Positions 3,942 through 18,827 of a DNA stretch of 32,863 nucleotides are shown here, in pieces. The stretch's first letter is position 1. Each line of letters begins with the position of its first letter. Below the pieces are notes generated by a model. It saw nothing but the letters and a program-made list of their open reading frames with translations, was not told where the DNA came from and did not search any database. This DNA comes from Balneolia bacterium (GTDB lineage: Bacteria > Bacteroidota > Rhodothermia > Balneolales > Cyclonatronaceae), in the NCBI GenBank assembly GCA_022565795.1, contig JAIUMA010000037.1, positions 1 through 32,863 on the forward strand, written 5' to 3'. Position numbers and translations under genes: made by a program.

Positions 3942-6900
3942 TTACTTCACCAGCATCATTTTGCGGACATCTACGAAGCTGCCGGACTGCAGTCTGTACA
4001 GGTACATTCCGGATGCCAGGTGCGTCGCGTCGAACGATACGGTGTGCTGACCCGCATTTTGCTGCCCGTTTACCAGAACCGCCACGCGCTGTCCCTGCAG
4101 GTTGAAAACCTCAAGGGTTACTTCACCGGCTTCGGGCAGGGCATAGGTAATTTGGGTGGTCGGGTTAAACGGGTTCGGATAGTTTTGGTTGAGGGTGAAC
4201 TCATTCGGTACCTCATCACCCGGATTCGTGCTGGTTACGTTTTCCAGCTCCAGAACCTGACCATCAGCCAATACTGCAAACAGACCAAAATTGCGTCCTT
4301 CAGCATCGCCGGGCGTTACAAACCCGGAAGCCATCACCGTTAACGCTTCGCCTTCAAGCATGCTCACGTCGGCCAGGAAGCTTCCAAGCGGATCGCCAGT
4401 GGCTGCATCGGTCAGATCGAGTGTGTAGGCATCAGCCGGAAGGCTGAGGTAGCCTGTGCGGCTTCCGTAAACGGCTTCTTCAACAAGCACCAGCTCGCCG
4501 GAACTTACCTGCACGGCAGGAGCGTCGGTCGTACCGTGGAATACGGCAATATCAACACCGCTTGCTTCGGCCTGCAGCCTGGACTCGCCAAACACGAACA
4601 GATCAAATGCAATACTTTCGCCATCCGGGTTGCCCGGGAACGCGTCCGGATCGAACACGCCATTGGCAAACAGCTGGTAGACTTCGCCTTCATCCAGCAC
4701 GTAGGTTTCGGTGAAGACAGCGTCCTCTACCGGATCACCGGCGGCGGAGATAGCAATTTCGAGCTCAGTTTCGGCCGGAAGCGGCAGATAATCCGTGGCA
4801 TCGCGGAAGCTGAACTGAGGCAGGACAGCTTCACCATTCACAAAAATATCCACGCTGTCGAATGCCGGATCGGCCGCGTTATGGATAATCTGTACAAAGG
4901 CATCTCCCGCAGGTTCAACCACGTCCATAGTGAGACTGACCGGAAGCACCGCAGCCATTGGATCGTTGGTGAATACGTTGATAAGCGCATCAAAGCTACC
5001 AATCTCAAATCCGGCTGAGTTTGCCGTAACGGTTACGGTCTGCTCTTCACCGGCTTCTACCACGCCTGATACCGCATCGAACTCGATCCAGTCCAGACCG
5101 GCGCTCACGGCGCGCATTTTGTATGCCCAGCCGTCATCGGGAAGCTCAATCCACTCCTGCTCGCTCGGGAAGAAGTAGGCGAATCTATCAGAGTTTTCCG
5201 GGTCCATTTCAATATTTATACCCTGTGGTGAAATCACGTTCGTTGAGAAGCGGAATACCACCCAGAAGTCTTCACCGCCTTCAAAAAGCACCGGCTGATT
5301 CAGCTCGATGAGCGAGGATTCTCCGTTTCCGGAGGTTATGGTGAAGGTCTGTTCAACCTCAAGTGTTCCTTCTGCAGGGGCGTCACCGCCGCGATACACC
5401 TGTATGAGCACCGGCGATGAGCCTGCGGTTTCTGCACGCATCCAGTTTCTTACGTGGGTCATGTAGAAACCCTGCTCTTCAGCCGTGAAGCGGGTAGCGC
5501 CCCAGAAAGGAAGATCCGGATCGGGAATACCCACTACCTGCTCAGGCGTAAGGCCCGGTGCATCGTAGAAGAGGCTGTCCTGAATCACCACGCCGTCCTG
5601 TAACAGCCCGGCTGATGTTTCACCTCCGGCTTCGCTGTCAAACATAAAGACAGAGCCTGAAACTCCCCGGTTTACGGTCGGCATCTGCTGCAGCTGACGA
5701 ATCAGCTCGATTTCATCTGTGCCACGCTCTGAAGTTTCAGTTGGCGGCAGGGAGTTAAGTCCGTAGGTCAGCGGGCTTCCGCCGGTGTTGGAAATCACAA
5801 ACTCCGCAGAACCTGATGTGCCGAAGGTTACTTCAACGTTCAGCTCGTCGGGGTTGACGTCCGCTATCGGTGCTTCGATAGCAGATGCGGATACAGGAAC
5901 AGCTACAGAAGCCTGATTCGGATCGTTGGTCTCAAGGGTGATGGATGTGCTCAGATCGCCCGTAGTCTGCGGATTGAAGGTAACCAGTACGGTCTCAATC
6001 GTGTTGTAGGCAACCGTAACGCTGGTCTCAGAAAATGAGAAGTTTTCATCATCGCCTATGGAAAGGTCGATTTCCAGGTCTTCAGCTCCTTCATTGGTAA
6101 ATGAAAGCATCAGCGACTGCTCGCCGCCTTCGAATAATTCGTCGAACTCCAGAGACTCCGGCGAAAATACAAGATCCGGCTCCGGTGGCACAATGCGTAC
6201 GTTGATGTCGTCGAGATACAGCTCACGCTGTGCGGCATCACTGTAGGCATGGAAGGCCAGATGATAGCGGTCGGCCTCATCAACGGTGAAGATGCCGCCA
6301 AGCTCGATAAACGCTTCGCTCACGATGTTATCATCATTAAAAAACGGCTCTTCAAACGCCAGATCAGATGAAGTTCCGGTGGCCAGATGCACTTTGAGCT
6401 TTTCAACTCTTGGCGCGATAAACTCGGCGCGTGCGGCCTGGAAGGTTACTTCGTAGGTGTTGCCCGGCTCGAATTCGAAAGCGGGTGAGAACAGCCAGTC
6501 ATCCTTCGGGTTGTTCTGATCGAAGCCAACACGGGCGGAGTTTTCACCCACGGCCGAACGGAAGCTCGTTGTTACCCATGTGATGCCGTTTTCATTAGCA
6601 TCTTCAAAGCGCCACGCAATAGGCAGCTCCGGTGTTGAGGTATCTTCAAAAATTTCGTTGTACGGCAGTTCGGTAACCACGGGATCATCTTTTGTGGTGA
6701 ACGACCACACGGCGATTTCATCCTCAATTACGCCTTCAGCATCGTAAGGTACAACCTGCCAGAAGTAGGTGGTGCTGTACTCCAGCTCGCCTTCCGGCTG
6801 ATAGGAGGTTTCGGTTCCCACATCAATCATATCCTCGATGTTGGTTGGCGGTTCGTCTGTACCAAAGCTGAAGAAGTAGCCCTGAGGCGTAACGCCTGAG

Positions 6901-7646
6901 CCCTGCGCCCACTCGACTCCTGTTGTGAGGCGAAGGTCTGTCGCACCGTCAGCCGGACTAACAATCACGGCCGGATTCGGACGCGGAAGAGGTTCGAAAA
7001 CTTCTACGTTGTCAATGATCCACCAAAATGCACTGCCGTTGTTATCGTTATAGACGAAACGGATATAGACTTCGCTTTCACCAGCAGCGAATTCCGTAAG
7101 GTTGTATTCGGAGGTTGTCGGAAAAATATCCAGTTCAAGCGGATCAAACAGCCCGCCGTTGTCTACAAAATCTCCGGCAGAAGTAATGGTAGCAACTTCA
7201 TTCCACTGCTCACCATCCAGACTTACTTCAATAAGCCCAAAAGATGTTCCCGCACCTCTCAGCTGCTGGTCGAAACGAAGAATAACCTCATCCAGTTCAG
7301 ACATGTCTATTGCGGGTGTTTGCATACCGATGTGTACGTTTGGGCCGTTTAGCGTACCAACGGCCTCTGCGAGGGCAATGCCTCCCTCACCCGGTTCAAA
7401 TATGGTATAGCCGGTTCCTATTTCTCCCGGCAGGCGAACCGGTTCGGTCGGCTCCAGGAATATCCACTCCCGGCCTTCGTCGCCAAAGTTTATGAGCGTC
7501 CATCCATCGGGAAGCTCTTCATCATTAAAATCTTCAAAAAAGATTGGTTCCGGCTCTTCGCCGTTATCTTGTGCTATGGCCAGCTTTGTATCAAGCAGGG
7601 TCCAAAGCAACATACAGCCCATTAACACTAGTATTGCTTTTTTCAT
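3942..7646 (-). CDS. Large secreted multidomain protein with C-terminal sorting (T9SS-type) domain
   Basis: A 1234-aa exported surface or extracellular protein. I start at ATG 7646, because MKKAILVLMG begins a clear signal peptide (cleavage after about residue 26, ...KLAIAQ). An upstream in-frame ATG at 7715 would add 23 polar residues ahead of it. Approximate domain order: a choice-of-anchor-J-like β-sandwich (35-220, EDFNDEELPDGW); an Fn3-like module (225-320); a second anchor-J-like domain (320-485); one or two ASH/choice-of-anchor-D Ig-like modules (490-640, PxxLxF...GG..SLMLSFTN); a β-rich region; a DUF4397-like segment (about 925-1130, VQIIHNAADP, DIAVFHGTTDAP); and a sorting domain at 1148-1234 (NQNYPNPFNPTTQITYALP ... 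ASGMYLYRL). The composition is strongly acidic with very few Cys. It probably mediates adhesion or matrix binding. The exact function is unknown. It is a single gene with its own terminator. Confidence 0.9.
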   Translation of the reverse strand: MKKAILVLMGCMLLWTLLDTKLAIAQDNGEEPEPIFFEDFNDEELPDGWTLINFGDEGREWIFLEPTEPVRLPGEIGTGYTIFEPGEGGIALAEAVGTLNGPNVHIGMQTPAIDMSELDEVILRFDQQLRGAGTSFGLIEVSLDGEQWNEVATITSAGDFVDNGGLFDPLELDIFPTTSEYNLTEFAAGESEVYIRFVYNDNNGSAFWWIIDNVEVFEPLPRPNPAVIVSPADGATDLRLTTGVEWAQGSGVTPQGYFFSFGTDEPPTNIEDMIDVGTETSYQPEGELEYSTTYFWQVVPYDAEGVIEDEIAVWSFTTKDDPVVTELPYNEIFEDTSTPELPIAWRFEDANENGITWVTTSFRSAVGENSARVGFDQNNPKDDWLFSPAFEFEPGNTYEVTFQAARAEFIAPRVEKLKVHLATGTSSDLAFEEPFFNDDNIVSEAFIELGGIFTVDEADRYHLAFHAYSDAAQRELYLDDINVRIVPPEPDLVFSPESLEFDELFEGGEQSLMLSFTNEGAEDLEIDLSIGDDENFSFSETSVTVAYNTIETVLVTFNPQTTGDLSTSITLETNDPNQASVAVPVSASAIEAPIADVNPDELNVEVTFGTSGSAEFVISNTGGSPLTYGLNSLPPTETSERGTDEIELIRQLQQMPTVNRGVSGSVFMFDSEAGGETSAGLLQDGVVIQDSLFYDAPGLTPEQVVGIPDPDLPFWGATRFTAEEQGFYMTHVRNWMRAETAGSSPVLIQVYRGGDAPAEGTLEVEQTFTITSGNGESSLIELNQPVLFEGGEDFWVVFRFSTNVISPQGINIEMDPENSDRFAYFFPSEQEWIELPDDGWAYKMRAVSAGLDWIEFDAVSGVVEAGEEQTVTVTANSAGFEIGSFDALINVFTNDPMAAVLPVSLTMDVVEPAGDAFVQIIHNAADPAFDSVDIFVNGEAVLPQFSFRDATDYLPLPAETELEIAISAAGDPVEDAVFTETYVLDEGEVYQLFANGVFDPDAFPGNPDGESIAFDLFVFGESRLQAEASGVDIAVFHGTTDAPAVQVSSGELVLVEEAVYGSRTGYLSLPADAYTLDLTDAATGDPLGSFLADVSMLEGEALTVMASGFVTPGDAEGRNFGLFAVLADGQVLELENVTSTNPGDEVPNEFTLNQNYPNPFNPTTQITYALPEAGEVTLEVFNLQGQRVAVLVNGQQNAGQHTVSFDATHLASGMYLYRLQSGSFVDVRKMMLVK

Positions 7647-8015
7647 GTTGTTGTTCAGTTGGGGTGATAAATTTTGTGAGCCATTAAAATGGGTATTCAA
7701 CCCTATTAACAGCAATACTAAAGGCTGGAAATAAGCTGTAGGTCTGCCGGTTTTGAATATGAATGATTTAACAATTGTATAAGCGTGCCAATCAAATGAT
7801 TAAAGATGATGATCTAATTTGATCGGAGGGAAACGGTTAGCTCATACAATTATAGGGGCAGTTGTGCATGAATTCGCAATTACAAGCTGCTGATATTCGT
7901 GATTTTACCCTCTTCAATACATGAAGGATTAACAACCATTAACAGTCGTTAGAACCAAAATAGAGGCATGGAATCCACTTTTTTTGATTTAGGAGGCTCA
8001 TTCTGCCAGGTTGGT
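7647..8015. other. 369-bp intergenic region with nested inverted repeat
   Basis: There is no gene here. It separates rlmG (ends 8016) from the secreted-protein gene (starts 7646), both on the minus strand. It is AT-rich and dominated by the 79-nt nested inverted repeat at 7773-7851. The promoter of the secreted protein should lie between about 7660 and 7770; I could not assign its boxes. Confidence 0.6.
7773..7851 (-). ncRNA. Possible structured RNA element: nested 12-bp and 10-bp stems
   Basis: The outer arms are 7773-7784 and 7840-7851 (minus-strand AATTGTATGAGC / GCTTATACAATT). The inner arms are 7788-7797 and 7817-7826 (minus-strand CCGATCAAAT / ATTTGATTGG). On the minus strand all 22 pairs form with two G-U wobbles; on the plus strand both become A-C mismatches. 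That asymmetry suggests selection on a minus-strand transcript: a 5' leader of the secreted-protein gene, a 3' end of rlmG, or a small RNA. No known riboswitch class is recognised. Confidence 0.4.
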
Positions 8016-10308: not shown

Positions 10309-10716
10309 ATGAACGATTTCTCCGATATTTTTTATCTGCTCGGAGCTATTGTTATTGTATCACTGCTTTCATTACAAATAAACCGGTTCATTAACACCAA
10401 TGAGTCTGTTTATACTCAGGCCGTGCTTGAGGAAAACGTGATACGCATAACACAGCTTTACTCCGACCGCATAAAATGGATTAACAGCGAACAGCAGCTC
10501 GAGGACTTCATTAGCACGTTTCCTATAACCGAAACGGTCGTTTTTGATGCCGAAAGAAATCTGTCGCTCGACTTTGATATCACCGTCAGCGCAAGAGACA
10601 CCGTACTGACCGGTGCCAGTGTAGACAGCAAGCTCATACGAATTGTTGTCGAGTCGCAGAATTTTGCCAGCGACAGTCCATATACCGCGCTCACCAAGGT
10701 GCTCAAAACATTCTGA
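10309..10716 (+). CDS. Pilin-like small anchored protein, class A (cassette 1)
   Basis: A 135-aa protein with one hydrophobic N-terminal span (about 8-27, FYLLGAIVIVSLLSLQIN) and an extracytoplasmic α/β remainder. No lipobox or cleavable signal peptide is seen, and there is no canonical prepilin site with Glu5. It aligns by eye with the 139-aa protein at 16864-17283: both have LGAI...N at the end of the span, a polar helix with (S)(D/E)RI, and a final β-strand ITVYE/IRIVVES region. It starts a tight plus-strand cassette, with gaps of 21, 21 and 60 bp to the following genes. The likely role is as a minor pilin or pseudopilin-like component. Family membership is inference; function is unknown. 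Confidence 0.72.
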   Translation: MNDFSDIFYLLGAIVIVSLLSLQINRFINTNESVYTQAVLEENVIRITQLYSDRIKWINSEQQLEDFISTFPITETVVFDAERNLSLDFDITVSARDTVLTGASVDSKLIRIVVESQNFASDSPYTALTKVLKTF

Positions 10717-10737
10717 ATCATATAATCCCTTAATCAT

Positions 10738-11337
10738 ATGAATTTAAACCTTGTTTTGAGCTTCGCGATTGGTGGTATGCTTCTGCTTTCTCTGCTGAGC
10801 CTGAGCATGACCATGTCGAACCATTCTGTTGAGTCTACTTTCAACATTATAAATCAGGGTGAGCTGGATAACCTCACCTTTCAGATTTCGAATGATCTGA
10901 ACCGTATGGGCTACAGCCCGGGCGGCGGAAACGAACCTCCCCGAATTATTGATGCGCGTCAGGATTTTGTGCATTTCCAGGCCGATATAGCAGGAACCGG
11001 CGTTCGGGAGGTAACCTGGGAACTGGTGGATACCACGTTGTCGCACCCTAATCCCGATCTCAAAATACTTCGAAGAGTGGGGACCCTTGGACCGGGCTTC
11101 CCGGATACACATACGCTTAACTACCCCGTAATCGACTTCAAGCTCACCCCTTACAGTGACTTTGCCGGAACGGTACCAGCAACAGGACTAAATGAGGTCC
11201 GAAGCGTACTTGTTGAGGTTGTGTTTGAATCGAAAGAACGGGTTCGCTTCCGCGGTAATGCGGAAGGCGAGTTTCCCAGAACTTACTGGCGGAAACTTTT
11301 TGTACCGAAAAATCTGCAGCTGCAAAGCACCTACTAA
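10738..11337 (+). CDS. PilW-like anchored protein, class B (cassette 1)
   Basis: A 199-aa protein with an N-terminal span (about 4-25, NLVLSFAIGGMLLLSLLSLS) and an exported domain. The layout is that of PilW-like minor pilins: membrane helix, helical segment containing LTFQISNDLNRMGYSPGG, then β-strands with VREVTWELVDTT and VRSVLVEVVFES. The C-terminus YWRKLFVPKNLQL resembles RRIYLRNLDL at the end of the 163-aa protein at 16360-16851, its proposed paralogue. The RMGYSP and VHF/VTWEL phrases recall PilW-type sequences, where an early helix is followed by a strand-rich head. It lies 21 bp after the class A gene with no obvious Shine-Dalgarno sequence. Assembly into a pilus-like structure is inferred. 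Confidence 0.72.
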   Translation: MNLNLVLSFAIGGMLLLSLLSLSMTMSNHSVESTFNIINQGELDNLTFQISNDLNRMGYSPGGGNEPPRIIDARQDFVHFQADIAGTGVREVTWELVDTTLSHPNPDLKILRRVGTLGPGFPDTHTLNYPVIDFKLTPYSDFAGTVPATGLNEVRSVLVEVVFESKERVRFRGNAEGEFPRTYWRKLFVPKNLQLQSTY

Positions 11338-11358
11338 CTAATTCCAAACTTCAGCACC

Positions 11359-12654
11359 ATGGGACGATCAATGCTATTTTTAGCCGGAGGGATGATTTTT
11401 ATCTTCGGTATTATAAGCTTTGCCATATCCAACAGGCAAATATCACTGCTCGACAGGGTCTTCAACTATCATTACGACAACCACGCCCTGAATATTAACT
11501 CCAGCGCCATCGATTACGCTATTCGGGAAATCAGTGCTAATCCATCATGGACCGGCGGATTGGCATCCGACAATTTCCTCATAGGGGAAGTCGACCTTCG
11601 GGTCTATACCTATAACGACTGGCTGTCAGATCCGGGGTCCATTCCTCCTAACAATGTGGTAAGCTGGGATCCTTACACCCTGCTGCTCATTTCTCAGGCT
11701 GAATACGGAAACAGAACCGCCTTTTCCGAAGTGATGCTCACCAACGACTCTTTTTCGCAGTATTCGTATTTCACTAACTATGAAACTACCTCCGGTGGAC
11801 AAATAGCCTGGTTCACCAATTTGGATGAACTATGGGGCCCCGTGCACTCCAACGATAAAATGCACATGTTTTCTACACCGACTTTCCACGGCAGAGTTAC
11901 CAGCACCACAGACTATGAAAAGTGGGATAGCAACTCCAATCCGGACTTCCGTGCAGATACCGACTTTAATTCAGACAGAATTGATATGCCAACGGTTGAG
12001 CAGCTCGACAATCTCCGCGCCGCCGCTCTCGACGGAGGCAAACGCTACTCCGGTGATATCGAAATCCGCTTGCTGAATGGCGGCAATATTCAGGTGAAAG
12101 ACTGGAACGCAGGCCCGGGTGCAAATACCGAAGTGTTTCACATTGATACCATTAACGGAGTAATCTCCTCCGGCGGTGTTGTGGAGGTTGAGGGCAAGCT
12201 CAACGGCAGACTCACCATCCACTCGGATGTGAACATTCGTATTACCGGTAATATCGAGTACAGCGACAACCCGCTTGATAATCCGCTTTCGAACGACCTG
12301 CTTGGGCTTGTGAGTGAGGGTGATGTTACCATTGCACAGGATGCATACCGCGGCAAGGGTGGCAACCGAGACCTCACTATCCACGCGTCTATTATGGCGC
12401 TTAATGAATCTTTTGAGGTCGAGAACTACGACACCTATGGAAGAAGCATGGGCGAGCTGAATGTACTTGGCGGCATTATTCAAGAGCGCCGTAAAGCCGT
12501 GGGACGTGGCCGGTTTACCCCGGGTGGAGTAATCATCGATTCCGGGTTTTCAAAAAACTACCGTTACGACGACCGTTTGATGCGTGCGAACCCACCGTTT
12601 TTCCCGCGCCAAAGCTTTTTTACCGTAGCTTACTGGAATGAGTTTGTGCGGTAG
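11359..12654 (+). CDS. PilX/DUF4900-like anchored β-helix protein, class C (cassette 1)
   Basis: A 431-aa protein. MGRS precedes a hydrophobic span (about 4-23), then a helical stalk (DYAIREISANPSW, PilX-like) and a long β-rich passenger. Hallmarks of DUF4900-type proteins are visible: GPVHSNDKMHMFSTPTFHG (about 155-173), an ISSGG...VEGKLNGRLTIHSDVNI strand ladder, LGLVSEGDVTI, LTIHASIMAL, GGIIQERRKAVG and NYRYDDRLMRANPPFFP. The extreme C-terminus FFTVAYWNEFVR shares the (F/Y)T(I/V)A(F/Y)WN motif with the class C protein of cassette 2. The predicted fold is a right-handed β-helix or solenoid presented outside the inner membrane. It could be a tip or structural subunit of a pilus-like assembly. 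Start ATG 11359 gives MG plus a hydrophobic span, like its paralogue. Confidence 0.78.
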   Translation: MGRSMLFLAGGMIFIFGIISFAISNRQISLLDRVFNYHYDNHALNINSSAIDYAIREISANPSWTGGLASDNFLIGEVDLRVYTYNDWLSDPGSIPPNNVVSWDPYTLLLISQAEYGNRTAFSEVMLTNDSFSQYSYFTNYETTSGGQIAWFTNLDELWGPVHSNDKMHMFSTPTFHGRVTSTTDYEKWDSNSNPDFRADTDFNSDRIDMPTVEQLDNLRAAALDGGKRYSGDIEIRLLNGGNIQVKDWNAGPGANTEVFHIDTINGVISSGGVVEVEGKLNGRLTIHSDVNIRITGNIEYSDNPLDNPLSNDLLGLVSEGDVTIAQDAYRGKGGNRDLTIHASIMALNESFEVENYDTYGRSMGELNVLGGIIQERRKAVGRGRFTPGGVIIDSGFSKNYRYDDRLMRANPPFFPRQSFFTVAYWNEFVR

Positions 12655-12714
12655 CGGTAACACAGTAAACCATAATTAATCAATACCTGATCTACTCTTC
12701 ACCCTTTTTTATTT

Positions 12715-13101
12715 ATGAAATCACTGCTATTACTGATTGCACTTTCATTTGCTTTTACTTTTGTGATGAGCACTGATTCTGCAGCCCAGACGGTCACCTT
12801 CGAACTCGACCTCTCTTCTCAGATTGCCGACAGCACTTTTGTACCGGACAGAGATGTAGCTCTGCTTCGGGGTACCAGTTTCCCCCTGAACGCAGGCCAG
12901 CATATTCTAAAACCTGCAGAGGAAGAGCATGTGTATGAACTTCAGATTGATTTCTCTTTTGCACAAATCGGTGAAGGGCTTGAGTTCCTTTTTGTTCTTG
13001 AAACAGAAAATGAAACTGTCGAAGAACAGATGCCCAGACGTATGCAAATTCCCCGTGGCGGACACACAATAAGAAGCTTTTTCAACTCCTTTAATTTCTG
13101 A
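12715..13101 (+). CDS. Small secreted β-sandwich protein (cassette 1 partner)
   Basis: A 128-aa protein with a clear signal peptide (MKSLLLLIALSFAFTFVMS...AAQ, cleavage near 25) and a mature part of about 103 residues. The mature N-terminus TVTFELDLSSQI...FVPDRDVALLRGTSFPL follows the V-x-F-x-(V/L)-D-(M/L) ... F-x-P-D-x-D-x-(V/A)-x-(L/V)-(R/A)-G pattern of carbohydrate-binding-like β-sandwich modules found in FCB-group outer-surface proteins. No catalytic motif is visible. It follows the class C gene at 60 bp and converges with the methyltransferase, which ends only 12 bp away. Proximity suggests a periplasmic or surface accessory of the pilin-like cassette, but no equivalent gene sits in cassette 2. 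Confidence 0.68.
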   Translation: MKSLLLLIALSFAFTFVMSTDSAAQTVTFELDLSSQIADSTFVPDRDVALLRGTSFPLNAGQHILKPAEEEHVYELQIDFSFAQIGEGLEFLFVLETENETVEEQMPRRMQIPRGGHTIRSFFNSFNF

Positions 13102-13113
13102 CCCTAACTCCCC

Positions 13114-13683
13114 TCAGCCTCCAGCCCCTTTCTTAGCCTCCACGAAAAGCCTTGGTTCCAGGAAAAAGGGCATAGACTCGGTTCGAATGATTTGAAACGG
13201 CCTGGAGAGAATCGCCTTTAGCGGTTCGCTGTCGAGATGACAGTTGCCGCTGAGTGGGGCAAGCGGAGGCGTGAGGATCCGCTGAGCGCTTCGAATCATT
13301 ACTCGATTGGACAAGGTGTGCTCAATAGCCAAAAGCTTGCCACCGGGCTTTAGCACGCGGTAGATTTCAGCTACGGCCCGGGTTTGATCATCTACTGAGC
13401 AAAGCAAAAACGAGATACAGACCGCATCAAAGCGGTTATCTTCAAACGGCAGGGTCTCAGCGCTTCCATGATGCAGGCTGATGTTCGTTTTACGCAGCAC
13501 CTCAAGCAAGCGGGCAGCTCTGTTAACAGCTTTTTCATCTTTTTCCACCGCCTGAACCCTGGCTGAGTCAGCATAGCAGGCGAACGTCTCTCCGTCGCCA
13601 AAGCCGATTTCAAGCACCTCGCCACTCAGACCTTCCAAAGCCGACAAAAAGTGCTGTTTCTTAAATTTTTTATGTTTCAGCAA
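13114..13683 (-). CDS. Class I SAM-dependent methyltransferase (Methyltransf_11 type)
   Basis: A 189-aa Rossmann methyltransferase. Motif I is VLEIGFGDG (about 24-32), an acidic residue in VEKD ends β2, LPFEDNRFDAVCISFLLCSV forms β4, and RVLKPGGKLLAIEH is the post-I/β5 signature. The short C-terminal part resembles UbiE- or METTL7-like small-molecule or lipid methyltransferases. The substrate cannot be told. Translation apparently starts at TTG 13683 (TTG CTG AAA CAT): an in-frame stop lies at 13699-13701 and no ATG lies between. It is cytoplasmic, convergent with the cassette-1 secreted protein (12-bp gap) and divergent from the His/Met-rich secreted protein. Confidence 0.82.
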   Translation of the reverse strand: MLKHKKFKKQHFLSALEGLSGEVLEIGFGDGETFACYADSARVQAVEKDEKAVNRAARLLEVLRKTNISLHHGSAETLPFEDNRFDAVCISFLLCSVDDQTRAVAEIYRVLKPGGKLLAIEHTLSNRVMIRSAQRILTPPLAPLSGNCHLDSEPLKAILSRPFQIIRTESMPFFLEPRLFVEAKKGAGG

Positions 13684-13755
13684 TCCGGTAGTGAGTAGTT
13701 AAGGTGATGTTTAGCTGAGCATATCATCCGAAACATACTAATGAATTTAATCTAT

Positions 13756-13778
13756 ATATCATTCAATTTGAATGATAT
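13756..13778. promoter_or_regulatory. Perfect 23-bp dyad, ATATCATTCA-ATT-TGAATGATAT
   Basis: The 10-bp arms at 13756-13765 and 13769-13778 are perfect inverted repeats with a 3-bp spacer. It lies 58 bp before the ATG at 13837 and about 73 bp before the divergent methyltransferase start, the position expected for an operator. The length and AT-rich half-sites resemble operators of homodimeric winged-helix repressors. The cognate regulator is unknown. Confidence 0.5.
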
Positions 13779-13836
13779 GCTATACCCTTGCCTTGTATTA
13801 GGTAGCGGGCATTTTTAATTAACTATTTATGAAGCC

Positions 13837-14751
13837 ATGTCAATCAGAAATGTATCCTTCCACGCTGTAACTTCCGGACTGCTCTTGCTTATCATCCTCC
13901 TTTCACCTGCTTTGCTTTTTGCTCAGTCTGAGTCAGAATCAGGCAAAGATTTCAATCATCGCGATTCGTTTTATATGAATTCGATTGGCGGTGGTGATTT
14001 CCGCACCTATATCACCAGTCACGTCACAGAAGAAGATACCTGGGCGTACGCCATGCGCAGTTTTGGTATTTTTCACAATCTCATGCACGAGATGATGTCT
14101 AACATGGTGCGCTACGACCTTGATGTCTACGGTGTTGAAAGCCGTATTCCTGAGTTCACCGAACGGATATCCGGAGGTGGATGGACCGACTATCGTAAGA
14201 AGCTGGCGGAAGACGATTCCGTTTCTGAAGAGTGGCTTCATTTCGTAAAGGTTCTGGAAATCATGCATGACCGGGTGCATCAGGCGATGTATAAATCCGT
14301 TATCTACGACCTTCAAAACAATCAGCGCGCGGCCGTCATCACCGATTATGCTGATGAAAATCGCGCTCCCTATGAGACGGATGAAACCTTCCCCGACCTG
14401 AGTGGCTTCAGTCCGGAGTTTATTTCAAATGACGATTTCCGGGAAATAGCCTGGCATTCAGGCATCGAAGGGCGCTATCTGCACGCGACCGTTCAGCAAA
14501 TGACGCAGTTTTCGCATATGCTGGAAGAGCTCACAACATTGTGGGCAGACCACAGCCGCAGCCTGACGCACGAAAGCTGCAGAGCCGACGCTATTGAGCC
14601 CCGCATGGGATTTGAGAACTTCAGCAACTACACCGCATCTTCCGGTCTGTGCGCCGACGAAGAGTGGAGCAACCTCATGGCAGCCGCCGGACTCATGCAG
14701 ACACGTATCCATCAAATGATGGCCGCTTTCACAGCCTACCTGATCCGATGA
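13837..14751 (+). CDS. Secreted helical protein with His/Met-rich repeated helices
   Basis: A 304-aa exported protein that I cannot assign to a family. The signal peptide spans about 1-30 (hydrophobic core SGLLLLIILLSPALLFAQ). The mature part is almost wholly helical, with three or four related helices: FHNLMHEMMSNMVRYDL (about 78-94), IMHDRVHQAMYKSVIYDL (about 142-159), a weaker one around YLHATVQQMTQFSHML, and LMQTRIHQMMAAFTAYLI at the C-terminus. The repeats share a (M/H)-xx-(R/L)-(V/I/M)-H-(Q/E)-x-M core. Two Cys lie in the last third (ESCRAD and SGLCADE) and could form a disulfide. Clustered His and Met on repeated helices could bind metal or haem; that is inference. A 23-bp dyad sits just upstream, suggesting regulated expression. 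Confidence 0.72.
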   Translation: MSIRNVSFHAVTSGLLLLIILLSPALLFAQSESESGKDFNHRDSFYMNSIGGGDFRTYITSHVTEEDTWAYAMRSFGIFHNLMHEMMSNMVRYDLDVYGVESRIPEFTERISGGGWTDYRKKLAEDDSVSEEWLHFVKVLEIMHDRVHQAMYKSVIYDLQNNQRAAVITDYADENRAPYETDETFPDLSGFSPEFISNDDFREIAWHSGIEGRYLHATVQQMTQFSHMLEELTTLWADHSRSLTHESCRADAIEPRMGFENFSNYTASSGLCADEEWSNLMAAAGLMQTRIHQMMAAFTAYLIR

Positions 14752-14953
14752 CATTATTCAGGTGCCAGATCAATGAACAATTACCAATCATAGACTTCAA
14801 GCTGATTCCGGAATTGAGCACCTAACCCAAAACAACGCTAGCGACAGCAAACCGGCTCAAACTGCGCAGATCGCAAACGCGACCCGGCCCAAACAGTAGT
14901 TAACTGCCCCGGAGCGAATCAACGCATTTTGCACTCTCTTAAACACCTCGTAC

Positions 14954-14969
14954 ATTACTGCATAGTAAT
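14954..14969. promoter_or_regulatory. Operator-like dyad ATTACT-GCAT-AGTAAT
   Basis: The perfect 6-bp arms (14954-14959, 14964-14969) with a 4-bp spacer lie 29 bp upstream of the flavoenzyme ATG at 14999, within the expected promoter or leader. The rest of the 247-bp gap (14752-14998) shows nothing clear. Confidence 0.35.
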
Positions 14970-14998
14970 TTAAATATTTATCAACGTAATCGATTTCC

Positions 14999-16351
14999 AT
15001 GAGAGAACCAAAGCTGGTCGTTATTGGTGGTGATGCGGCGGGGATGAGCGCTGCATCAAAGGTCAGGCGAACCCATCCGGAGCGCGAAATTGTTGTGTTT
15101 GAGCAGGGTGAGCACACCTCCTACGCCGCCTGCGGCATGCCGTATTATATAGCCGGTGAGATCGAAGGGCACGAGAAGCTGATAGCACGCAAGCCCGAAG
15201 TTTTCCGGGAAAAGCAGAATATCGACGTTCGTATTCAGCACCGGGTTGAGGCCATAGATACGAATGCAAAAACGGTCTCCGTCACGAATCTGAAGACCGG
15301 CGAAAGCTTCGATGAGAAATGGGATCAGCTGCTAATTGCCACCGGCGCTGCTCCGGTCCGTCCGCCAATTACCGGTCTGAAGGGAGCCAAAGGTGTGTTC
15401 AGCCTGTCGATTTTGCAAACGGGCATCGATGTGTTTACCGATATCGAAACCCATCACCCTAAAACTGCGGTCGTTGTGGGCGGCGGCTACATCGGTATCG
15501 AAATGGCCGAGGCGCTTTTAGCCCGCGGTTTGAAGGTGACCCTTATCGATATGGCACCGCAGGTGATGACAACCATGGACAGCGAGCTGGCCGAAAAAAT
15601 ATCGTCCTACATGAAGGATGAAGGCATCAATGTGATGCTTAAGGAAAAGCTCTCCGAAATTGAGTGCGGTGATAACGGAAGGGTGAAGGCTGTCGTTACC
15701 GAAAAGCACCGGCTGGAGGCCGACATCGTTATTCTCGGGCTCGGCGTGAAGCCCCGCTCGGAGCTGGCCGAAATGGCTGGCATAAAGCTGGGCGATTCCG
15801 GAGCCATTGCGGTAAACAGCAAACTCGAAACCTCCGCGGTTGGCGTCTGGGCGGCCGGCGACTGTGCGGAGTCGTTTCACCGGGTCTCCGGAGAGCAGGT
15901 TCATATTGCTCTTGGCACCATTGCGAACAAACACGGCGCTATAGCCGGAACAAACATTAGCGGGGGAGACGCGAAGTTTCCGGGCGTTCTGGGTACGGCC
16001 ATCACCAAGTTCAACCGGCTTGAGATTGCACGAACCGGACTTTCCGAGAAAGAAGCGAAGAAGCTGAAAGTCGCCTATGAAACAGCGACCACAAGCAGCC
16101 GAACACGTTCGGGCTACTATCCGGGCAGCGCCGAGATAACGGTGAAGCTTCTCGTCCGCAAAGCAAGCGGAGAGCTTTTAGGCGGACAAATCATTGGTTT
16201 TGAAGGCTCCGGAAAACGGATTGATACCATCGCGGCAGCTATCACCGGCGGACTGACAGCCAACGACCTGACCTATGCGGATCTGTCTTATGCTCCACCA
16301 TTTTCACCCGTTTGGGATCCGGTGCAGATCTGCGCCCGAAAGCTGGTTTAG
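14999..16351 (+). CDS. CoA-disulfide reductase-like FAD/NAD(P)-dependent oxidoreductase
   Basis: A 450-aa cytosolic flavoenzyme of the single-cysteine disulfide-reductase group (CoA-disulfide reductase, NADH oxidase, persulfide reductase). The FAD-binding N-terminus VVIGGDAAGMSAAS (7-20) is followed by the redox-active Cys45 in SYAACGMPYY, the NAD(P) Rossmann motif GGGYIG (161-166), the second FAD motif GVWAAGDCAE (Asp288) and a C-terminal dimerisation domain ending YADLSYAPPFSPVWDP. The YAPPFSPVWDP tail and YAxCGxPYY box are typical of CoA-disulfide reductase and polysulfide/CoA-persulfide reductases. Length (about 440-450 aa) fits, and no rhodanese domain is fused. CoA thiol redox balance is the likeliest role; NADH oxidase is the alternative. 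It ends 8 bp from the convergent class B pilin-like gene. Confidence 0.87.
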   Translation: MREPKLVVIGGDAAGMSAASKVRRTHPEREIVVFEQGEHTSYAACGMPYYIAGEIEGHEKLIARKPEVFREKQNIDVRIQHRVEAIDTNAKTVSVTNLKTGESFDEKWDQLLIATGAAPVRPPITGLKGAKGVFSLSILQTGIDVFTDIETHHPKTAVVVGGGYIGIEMAEALLARGLKVTLIDMAPQVMTTMDSELAEKISSYMKDEGINVMLKEKLSEIECGDNGRVKAVVTEKHRLEADIVILGLGVKPRSELAEMAGIKLGDSGAIAVNSKLETSAVGVWAAGDCAESFHRVSGEQVHIALGTIANKHGAIAGTNISGGDAKFPGVLGTAITKFNRLEIARTGLSEKEAKKLKVAYETATTSSRTRSGYYPGSAEITVKLLVRKASGELLGGQIIGFEGSGKRIDTIAAAITGGLTANDLTYADLSYAPPFSPVWDPVQICARKLV

Positions 16352-16359
16352 AGAATTGG

Positions 16360-16851
16360 TCAGTCTAGGTCCAGATTTCTGAGGTAAATCCTTCGCTCGG
16401 CAAAACCTCTGGACACCTCATCCGAGCCGTTTCTTCTTGCGTGCTGCTCCGGAAGGCTGGCCGTGCTCACCATCACCCTTAGAAAAGTGGCGGACTCCAT
16501 CACAAAGCCCAGCGCTTCCAGCGATACATCATAGGTTAACGTATCCGGCTGCTCAATCAGTGGTCTACGGGTTATAAGCTCAATTTTTCGCTCAATTTTC
16601 CTGATTGTAACCGTGTCCTGCTTTGTGTTTACAAACCGAACGAGCGATCCGGAGGAGTCTATTTCTTCAATGCTGCTGATCTGTTTCAGCTCCTCCTGAA
16701 GCACATCCACAACTATATTTGCCGTTTCCTGCATGCCGTTGGTTACCCTGCTGTCGATTGAGGTCTCCATCATAAATGATTTGACCCCAAAAAAGAGCAG
16801 CATCAAAAAACCGGCGACAATCGGAGGGACTATTAAATCTGCCTGAATCAT
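16360..16851 (-). CDS. PilW-like anchored protein, class B (cassette 2)
   Basis: A 163-aa protein, the last gene of the minus-strand cassette. One N-terminal span (about 7-24, IVPPIVAGFLMLLFFGVK) precedes a polar helix (DSRVTNGMQETANIVVDVLQEELKQI) and a β-rich domain with DTVTIRKIERKIELI and LRVMVSTAS. The end, RRIYLRNLDLD, resembles the end of the class B protein of cassette 1 (RKLFVPKNLQL). It starts 12 bp after the class A gene. An AAAGGAG ribosome-binding site overlaps that gene's stop, 7 nt before the ATG, so translation is likely coupled. No cleavable signal peptide is present. The function as a minor pilin-like subunit is inferred. Confidence 0.72.
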   Translation of the reverse strand: MIQADLIVPPIVAGFLMLLFFGVKSFMMETSIDSRVTNGMQETANIVVDVLQEELKQISSIEEIDSSGSLVRFVNTKQDTVTIRKIERKIELITRRPLIEQPDTLTYDVSLEALGFVMESATFLRVMVSTASLPEQHARRNGSDEVSRGFAERRIYLRNLDLD

Positions 16852-16858
16852 GGTATTT

Positions 16859-16865
16859 CTCCTTT
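16859..16865 (-). promoter_or_regulatory. Strong Shine-Dalgarno AAAGGAG for class B gene
   Basis: Minus-strand AAAGGAG overlaps the stop codon of the class A gene and lies 7 nt before ATG 16851. The same heptamer stands 9 nt before the class A start (17293-17299). Cassette 1 lacks such sites, so this helps confirm both starts. Confidence 0.65.
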
Positions 16866-17283
16866 ATTCCATCACGTTAGTTACGGAAGCTATCATCTGC
16901 AGAAGCTGAGTGGCCCCGGATCCGTCCCGGTTTTCTTCGTAAACCGTTATGGTCGCAATTCTCCCGTTTTGCCCGCTGGCTACAGGCACTTCACCCGTGA
17001 GCTCCACGGTTGCGAAATAGGTTATCCCGATTTGTGATGTGAACTGAAGCCGGCTTTCCGGTTTTGTATGGTCGTTTAAGTGTCCAAAATCCTGATCCAG
17101 CTGATCGTACCGCATCGCGTAGGAATTGATTCTCTCACTCAGATCACGACCAAAATTGATGGCGTCTGACTGTACCTGTGCATCCACGCTTTGCTCTACC
17201 GACTGAATATACATGCTGTTGACACCAAGCGTAACCGATCCAAGAAGGATGATGGCACCCAGACTTAATAATACCTGTCCCAT
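16864..17283 (-). CDS. Pilin-like small anchored protein, class A (cassette 2)
   Basis: A 139-aa protein beginning MGQVLLSLGAIILLGSVTLG, a hydrophobic span at the very N-terminus, followed by a helical stalk (QSVEQSVDAQVQSDAINFGRDLSERINSYA) and a β-rich head (ITYFATVELTGEV..., IATITVYEE). MGQ plus a hydrophobic helix and a small head is a form seen in uncharacterised anchored proteins of Ignavibacteria and Rhodothermota (recalled, not searched). It is paralogous by eye to the 135-aa protein at 10309. The start is supported by AAAGGAG at 17293-17299. It lies between the class C gene (29-bp gap) and the class B gene (12-bp gap). A role in a pilus- or secretion-like filament is inferred. Confidence 0.73.
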   Translation of the reverse strand: MGQVLLSLGAIILLGSVTLGVNSMYIQSVEQSVDAQVQSDAINFGRDLSERINSYAMRYDQLDQDFGHLNDHTKPESRLQFTSQIGITYFATVELTGEVPVASGQNGRIATITVYEENRDGSGATQLLQMIASVTNVME

Positions 17284-17312
17284 TTATTTATACTCCTTTA
17301 ATGTCGGGGTGA

Positions 17313-18827
17313 TTAGTTCCAGAACGCTATGGTGAAGCGTCCGCTGTCGTCGTCTGAAGCCAGCTCGGGCAGAAAGTTTTCGAAGTCTCCGGAGTAATCA
17401 ATTTTAAAACCGCCGGATCCACTGAAAGACCTTGCCGCAATCGCTCCAAGTACCGTGCCGGAACCGCCCATGGTGACGTTAGCATGGGGTGCATAGATAA
17501 GTCTCGACTGATTTTGCGAACCGCCGTCAATCGTGATGTTCTCACCTCCTGATATGATGTTGCCTTTCAAACTGCCCGAATTTCCAAGCCGTAAGTCAGC
17601 ACTCTCTACATAGAGGTTCGCGTTTATCGGTATGTCGCCTCCGATGCTCAGCTCCTGGGATCCGCCGTAGGCCAAAAGAAGACTTTGCGGCATTCGGCTG
17701 TTTCCGCCCTGGTTTTCATTGTTGTTCATTGAGCTGCTGCCCGCAATCGTGAAGGTGTTGTCGATGATCAGCTGAAGATTTCCGCTGCCTTCAGAAATAA
17801 TATTTAAATGTCCCTGCGGCATGTTGAAATTGCTCACTCTCAGCACACGGTCCTGATCTCCAACGACGATATTTAATACCGTATCATTCGAAATGTTGAT
17901 GTTCTGGATATAAGCATCCCCCAGATTCCGAAGATCGATATTCTGGTTAGAAACTCCGCTCAGGTTTACATCAAGCAGGGTGTTGAGTCCTCCGGGAATT
18001 TCAGGGAATACGGGCATCGGTAATAGCTGTGGCGGTATTTCTGCATTCAGTGAGCCCTGATTTCCCTTAACGTGACCCGGATGCCAGAGGCTCATTTTAG
18101 GTGCAACGTTAGATGGATTTCCACCCGGTCCAACCAGCAGATTACCCATGATTTCGGCGCTCCAGTTTGTGTATTCCACTCCGCCGTCATTGGTTGCGTT
18201 TGTGTAGAGATCACCGTGAATCCGACCGCTTCCAATCGTTGCTGAAACGGTTCTTTCTCCGAATGTAATCAGTCCTAAATCCAGCAGGGGAGAGTTGCCG
18301 CTTAGTGCAGCCGTTGCGTTTCCGCGTATTTGGGCGTTGCCATCAACTGTAAGCTTGCCGCCGGAAAAAATATCGCCTTCAATAGATCCGCTGTTTATCG
18401 AAAGATAGTCTTCGGTGTAGAGAGCGAAGTCCATATCCGGCCAGTTGAATCCCGCAGCCGATGACCTCAGGCCGGCCGTGACCGTATACTCGGTACCGTC
18501 AAAACGCCCGGTTGACTCCACGATCATAAGGTCCCTTGCCGAATCATGCCTGATGTCTATGTTATAGTCACCCATCATATCCGGCCAGCTGCTGAACCCT
18601 GTTGATGATGAGCCGCCTGCAACAGGGATTTCAATGCTGCTCTCCCCATTGTTCAGATCTCTGATAACCGTCATGAGCGCACCCTGTGCAATGTTGTGCG
18701 CCTGATTAAATTCATACATTTCCACCACTCTCTCATTGCCTGAGAAAAATGTATTTCTCAGCAAAAATGAATAGGTGAACATTACTACGGACAAGCCGAG
18801 TACAAGAAGTATCGAGTATTTTCCCAT
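17313..18827 (-). CDS. PilX-like anchored β-helix protein, class C (cassette 2)
   Basis: A 504-aa protein. MGKYS precedes one span (about 5-24, LLVLGLSVVMFTYSFLL), then a PilX-like N-terminal region (EMYEFNQAHNIAQGALMTVIRDLNNGE) and a domain of about 380 residues. That domain is rich in Gly, Asn and Ser with bactofilin-like strand ladders: INSGSIEGDIFSGGKLTVDG, GDLYTNATNDGG, LRLGNSGSLKGNIISGGENI, ANVTMGGSGTVLGAIAAR. This points to a right-handed β-helix on the exported side. It ends GRFTIAFWN, the same (F/Y)T(I/V)A(F/Y)WN motif as the class C protein of cassette 1. It is first in its cassette, with an 8-bp dyad just upstream of the start. Length and the internal domain differ clearly from the 431-aa paralogue, so the two are not recent duplicates. 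Confidence 0.78.
   Translation of the reverse strand: MGKYSILLVLGLSVVMFTYSFLLRNTFFSGNERVVEMYEFNQAHNIAQGALMTVIRDLNNGESSIEIPVAGGSSSTGFSSWPDMMGDYNIDIRHDSARDLMIVESTGRFDGTEYTVTAGLRSSAAGFNWPDMDFALYTEDYLSINSGSIEGDIFSGGKLTVDGNAQIRGNATAALSGNSPLLDLGLITFGERTVSATIGSGRIHGDLYTNATNDGGVEYTNWSAEIMGNLLVGPGGNPSNVAPKMSLWHPGHVKGNQGSLNAEIPPQLLPMPVFPEIPGGLNTLLDVNLSGVSNQNIDLRNLGDAYIQNINISNDTVLNIVVGDQDRVLRVSNFNMPQGHLNIISEGSGNLQLIIDNTFTIAGSSSMNNNENQGGNSRMPQSLLLAYGGSQELSIGGDIPINANLYVESADLRLGNSGSLKGNIISGGENITIDGGSQNQSRLIYAPHANVTMGGSGTVLGAIAARSFSGSGGFKIDYSGDFENFLPELASDDDSGRFTIAFWN

Follow-up and report, generated by a model that had tools for sequence, protein, structure and literature searches.

Two minor-pilin cassettes of a Balneolia bacterium as probable alternative tip sets of one T4aP-like pilus built from leaderless subunits

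Type IV prepilins are defined in reviews by a class III signal peptide, and processing by the prepilin peptidase is described as a requirement before assembly (PMC10191384). In Thermus HB8, a cluster encodes the GspI-like TTHA1218, the GspJ-like TTHA1219 and the large TTHA1220 (PMC5131608, PMC6561018); from its size, and from PilFind calling neither protein a pilin, TTHA1220 would be the HB8 counterpart of ComZ. Myxococcus xanthus has three sets of minor pilins and one machine, and the authors of that study suggest that the sets provide tips of differing properties (PMC7541494).

The window, which is the whole 32,863-nucleotide stretch of DNA analysed, is contig C37 of a genome of 3.59 Mb that is 100% complete in 145 contigs. 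An earlier note on this DNA had claimed six open reading frames in two cassettes, A-B-C at 10309-12654 on the plus strand and C-A-B at 18827-16360 on the minus strand, encoding paralogous trios of N-terminally anchored pilin-like proteins, and this description was borne out. The intergenic gaps inside both cassettes are 12–29 bases. Cassette 1 represents what is called type 1 below and cassette 2 represents type 2, the genes being as follows.

10309..10716, plus strand: A1, a predicted leaderless PilV/GspI-class minor pilin of 135 amino acids, with a membrane helix from about residue 7
10738..11337, plus strand: B1, a leaderless PilW/GspJ-class minor pilin of 199 amino acids, assigned from an AF2 model and GspJ-class matches
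11359..12654, plus strand: C1, a leaderless PilX/GspK/ComZ-class tip pilin of 431 amino acids, in DUF4900 and with an AF2 model
11746..12573, plus strand: the C1 solenoid, residues 130-405, where DUF3494-type solenoids align with Z about 13
12715..13101, plus strand: D, a secreted protein of ~130 amino acids, conserved directly 3' of type-1 C in 16 other cassettes
17313..18827, minus strand: C2, a leaderless type 2 tip pilin of 504 amino acids, with DUF7305, ice-binding-like adhesive and bactofilin-like solenoid matches
16864..17283, minus strand: A2, the predicted type 2 minor pilin of the PilV/GspI class, likewise leaderless, with weak matches to PilV and Tt1218-like proteins
16360..16851, minus strand: B2, the type 2 minor pilin of the PilW/GspJ class, again without a leader

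Gene D, directly after C1, had been overlooked. Its product has a signal peptide and a tail that is usually aromatic and FNxFxW-like, it matched no family, Pfam included, and it may be a secreted partner of the type-1 tip. Between the two cassettes lies a gene (window 13837-14751) for a 304 amino acid protein with a signal peptide and the His-rich repeats HNLMHEMM, HDRVHQAM and RIHQMM, for which no significant Pfam match was obtained, and window 3942-7715 encodes a secreted protein of 1257 amino acids that by eye ends in a T9SS-type sorting domain (NQNYPNPFNPTTQITYALP...). Type-1 cassettes of relatives (L128, L134, L125) are flanked upstream by large proteins with a T9SS-like sorting tail, the L128 copy matching Invasin_D3 and Por_Secre_tail, and downstream by genes for DUF4402-like subunits and for chaperone-like and usher-like proteins, a second surface system next to the cassette. 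The upstream protein of about 1300 amino acids was considered as a PilY1 tip adhesin and rejected, the copy that was scanned consisting of Invasin_D3 and a type IX secretion tail.

The earlier pairing of A with A, B with B and C with C cited the layout and short shared phrases, and the tails quoted among these are found in the sequences. From two sequences alone such a pairing is a guess, because BLASTP finds nothing that joins A1 to A2 (E 14) or B1 to B2 (E 11), and C1/C2 reaches no better than E 0.002. Family profiles were constructed from about 20–30 homologues per class, taken from 117 genomes of the same order, and 60 regions around cassettes and machine loci were retrieved and their genes labelled. 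Profile–profile comparison of cassette 1 with cassette 2 gave probabilities of 94.7% for A1/A2, 95.4% for B1/B2 and 97.2% for C1/C2, and over types 1–3 (the third being found at a machine locus described below) the within-class ranges are 94.7–99.8% for A, 95.4–100% for B and 97.2–99.3% for C, with cross-class pairs mostly below 45% (exceptions A3/B1 at 84% and A3/B3 at 56%). The pairing therefore stands by profiles, but not by pairwise sequence for A and B. When the N-terminal segment is removed, C1/C2 still reaches 93.5% while A1/A2 and B1/B2 drop to 3–4%, so that the kinship of A and B leans mainly on the N-terminal helix region and on gene order. Single A and B proteins gave only sub-threshold pilin matches in Pfam and NCBIfam, no Pfam family matching those of the window significantly, and the window C proteins fall in DUF4900 and DUF7305; as they also have no leader, pilins of this kind escape leader-based annotation. 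Profiles of A, B, C and the major pilin P found no significant relative among PDB sequences.

In the AF2 model of B1 (pLDDT 91), residues 3-55 form a helix that leads into a beta head, the arrangement of a long N-terminal helix with a GspJ-type head that marks the J/W class. Foldseek alone returned no significant match for this model; the GspJ-class matches emerged when VIA-align re-ranked Foldseek's own candidate list, the nine best chains all being GspJ/EpsJ/XcpW or TTHA1219 (Z 9.4–11.4, the next chain having Z 3.0), with TTHA1219 at the top. The C1 model (pLDDT 88.8) comprises a helix at 2-60, four strands that end at residue 128, a solenoid spanning about 130-405 and a last strand at 422-430, within which lies the AxWN tail that had been cited for C. 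It is a pilin head with a large inserted domain, as in the K/X class, and the solenoid sits between the penultimate and the last pilin strand, the same insertion point that the ComZ solenoid occupies (PMC6561018). The top structural match of C1 is Thermus ComZ (Foldseek E 1.4e-8; VIA Z 15.1, rmsd 11.1 over 303 residues), the high rmsd presumably arising from a differing placement of the two domains, followed by DUF3494-type solenoids on residues 130-405 and one minor pilin on residues 32-431 (Z 9.2). The solenoid is the probable receptor or adhesive part of the protein.

For A, the profile link to canonical GspI/PilV-class proteins is 90% through other phyla and 57–65% directly, and a PilV/GspI-class identity is suggested by these profiles, largely by their N-terminal region, together with gene order. 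Window-type A, B and C match the leaderless trios of other FCB phyla class by class at 96–100%, and the FCB leaderless trios match canonical Omnitrophota trios at 90% for A, 95% for B and 100% for C (E 1.6e-91). The DUF4900 relatives in Omnitrophota and Ratteibacteria are also encoded as A-B-C, in the same order, and carry GspI/PilV, GspJ and PilX_N signatures. Because of the B1 fold, the C1 fold and these class-wise links to canonical trios, the trio is placed in the PilV-PilW-PilX / GspI-J-K class, in its Thermus TTHA1218-1219-ComZ form, and the view that no characterised system has this exact trio has to be abandoned. ComZ, the best structural match of C1, is a DNA-binding tip pilin (PMC6561018), which would suit tips for DNA uptake in competence and not for adhesion. 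This is unlikely, as the several divergent tip types per genome and the adhesive or ice-binding-like solenoid matches of C2 suit varied adhesion better. By analogy with Myxococcus, the two sets of the window would give this bacterium alternative tips, in which the C solenoid would make the contact.

The three classes were expected to occur together in other genomes, and A-B-C indeed lies beside 23 of 23 type-1 C genes, which is the I-J-K order in every case. Type 2 is encoded as either C-A-B or A-B-C, and on the C2 tree the A-B-C order falls mostly in one supported clade; the entry L141:3235, labelled A-B-C on that tree, comes second in a tandem of two C-A-B units, and its order is thus C-A-B. 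The difference in order holds between the two window cassettes but fails as a mark of cassette type, since both orders exist within type 2. The C-A-B tandems suggest a route to permutation by duplication and loss. Types 1, 2 and 3 are spread over several families and occur together within single genomes, and the duplications are therefore old, as had been proposed.

A single T4aP-like machine was found in the source genome, on contig C6, and a third A-B-C set lies inside its locus. The gene order is P, PilC, PilB, A3, a cNMP-binding protein, B3, C3a, C3b, C3c, a PilT-family ATPase (L004:6093-7319), a PilM-like protein, a PilN/O-like protein and the secretin. Scores are E 8e-130 for PilB, 5e-92 for the PilT family, 7e-28 for T2SSF and 7e-27 for the secretin, with a weak PilM assignment (E 0.067), and the locus holds the PilB, PilC, PilT, PilN/O and PilQ components by which a T4aP machine is recognised. 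The nearest PDB profiles to P are PilE1, PilA5 and geopilin, all non-significant at E about 0.1. The three C3 tip pilins stand in tandem (L004:1488-5223), which suggests further tip variation. The cNMP-binding protein lies at L004:442-921, between A3 and B3, and in LCP-89 genomes a response regulator is found at that place (L181, L184).

The cassettes could in principle belong to a type II-like secretion machine and encode its minor pseudopilins, with a short periplasmic pseudopilus and not a surface pilus, given that B1 and C1 resemble GspJ- and GspK-class proteins and that the scores of PilC and PilN/O lean slightly towards GspF and GspM, respectively. This is very doubtful, as the C6 locus includes a PilT-family retraction ATPase, which type II systems are without, T4aP models give the best scores for PilB and PilQ, and the minor pilins of Thermus type IV pili likewise resemble GspI/J/K.

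In the source genome the cassette slot of the machine locus is taken by type 3. The slot in relatives carries type 2 (G008, G004 and G030; loci L100, L101 and L159), type 1 (G020; L103), type 3 (several loci) or types 3 and 2 together (G027; L154), and it is empty in many genomes, whose cassettes sit elsewhere. Because the types replace one another at this locus, which is the best evidence on the point, they are taken to do the same job for one machine, and the cassettes look like exchangeable tip sets of one pilus, as in Myxococcus. The suggestion of specialised versions for one surface machine is thereby upheld, with a single machine locus that has a set of its own. That the satellite cassettes work without the C6 machine, as free adhesins anchored in the membrane, would fit their position on another contig with no adjoining machine genes, but it is highly improbable given this replacement at the machine locus and the full I-J-K set in each cassette.

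The earlier note had also overlooked the unusual part, which is the absence of both prepilin leaders and prepilin peptidase. The G-x-x-x-x-E prepilin motif occurs in 0 of the 206 A, B, C and P proteins checked, and the open frame upstream of the start has a median of 3–7 codons, leaving no room for a leader, so that all 206 are without the leader and GFxxxE-like motif of a class III signal peptide. PF01478 and PF06750, the peptidase and methylase domains, are absent from the source genome (100% complete, 145 contigs), which thus lacks the PilD that belongs with a T4aP machine. Within Balneolales, PF01478 was detected in 8 of 117 genomes and the T2SSE ATPase above cut-off in 89. All eight PF01478 genomes have a CpaF/TadA-type ATPase, a label given by ATPase length, score and position, and in seven the two are on the same contig within 6.5 kb. 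Across the class, 158 of 245 genomes encode a leaderless major pilin P with the conserved start MGQQQLLLVILVTIIVGIATVV; by a hand count of the overlap, 143 of these are without PF01478 and 15 have it. Ignavibacteria show a similar picture, with T2SSE above cut-off in 112 of 197 genomes and PF01478 in 8. In the Balneolia lineage, both the subunit leader and the enzyme that cleaves it off appear to have been lost from the pilus system.

The homologous trios of Omnitrophota keep their leaders, with a peptidase in nearly all of the genomes, and leaderless trios coexist with a peptidase in LCP-89, KSB1 and Gemmatimonadota genomes. A strict coincidence of leader loss with peptidase loss is rejected on account of the latter, and for the same reason leaderlessness alone is no proof of peptidase independence; leader loss may have come before peptidase loss. 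An ordinary T4aP with normal processing, its peptidase too divergent to detect or shared from another system, is given a very small chance. Peptidase families can diverge and MSH loci borrow peptidases (PMC6668835), but the A, B, C and P proteins carry no leader to cleave, the peptidase and methylase domains are both absent, and the search does pick up a peptidase in relatives that have Tad loci. The open-licence literature yielded no account of type IV pili in this lineage that lack leaders or the peptidase, and no experimental data on its pili.

Quite probably, then, the cassettes encode minor-pilin tip complexes of the one T4aP-like pilus of C6, whose pilins are leaderless and assembled without prepilin peptidase. 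Translation would begin at the membrane helix, and insertion by Sec/YidC would give an N-in anchor that loses no more than the initiator Met. The subunit would then join the filament with no prepilin peptidase, N-methylation or Glu5 involved. The I-J-K/V-W-X minor pilins start the filament and remain at its tip. In each cassette, A (PilV/GspI class) and B (PilW/GspJ class) would make up the neck, while C, which is of the PilX/GspK class and like ComZ has a pilin head that carries a beta-solenoid insertion, would cap the tip and touch the outside. The C6 machine would serve all sets, the window cassettes being satellite copies that supply alternative tips for the same pilus, with D as a probable secreted partner of the type-1 tip. 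Filament formation, tip location, unprocessed subunits and tip ligands are what we infer from these genes. It is likely that the whole class Rhodothermia, including Balneolales, and probably also Ignavibacteria, use type IV pili whose major and minor pilins are made in mature form, with neither a leader nor a peptidase and free of N-methylation and Glu5, and that they equip a single machine with several exchangeable ComZ-like tip sets. If so, a large lineage has the machine with neither leader nor peptidase, processing, N-methylation and Glu5 would be dispensable for assembly as such, and culturable genera, Gracilimonas and Fodinibius among them, would allow a direct test of the purpose of the peptidase step.

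One of the closest described systems is seen in Thermus, where a GspI-like, a GspJ-like and a large beta-solenoid tip pilin are likewise encoded together (TTHA1218-TTHA1219-TTHA1220, pilA1-3-comZ). However, the small pilins there count as normal type IV pilins, with ComZ/TTHA1220 alone being missed by PilFind, and the Thermus control genome has the peptidase family, whereas here all trio members and the major pilin are leaderless. Clusters 1–3 of Myxococcus xanthus, with PilY1, similarly combine several minor pilin sets with one T4aP machine and one major pilin, but there every pilin carries a type III signal peptide, and PilY1 and FimU belong to each set (PMC7541494). Neither of these two was identified here, where D is the sole secreted partner seen. 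The GspI-GspJ-GspK proteins of type II secretion are the same trio with the same fold classes, and differ from the present system in its PilT-family ATPase, solenoid-bearing C and absent leader peptides. The Omnitrophota DUF4900 trios (e.g. L178, L195) share the three classes and their order, but have canonical leaders (RGFTLMEV, KGLSLVEL, KGFMLI) and a peptidase in nearly all genomes.
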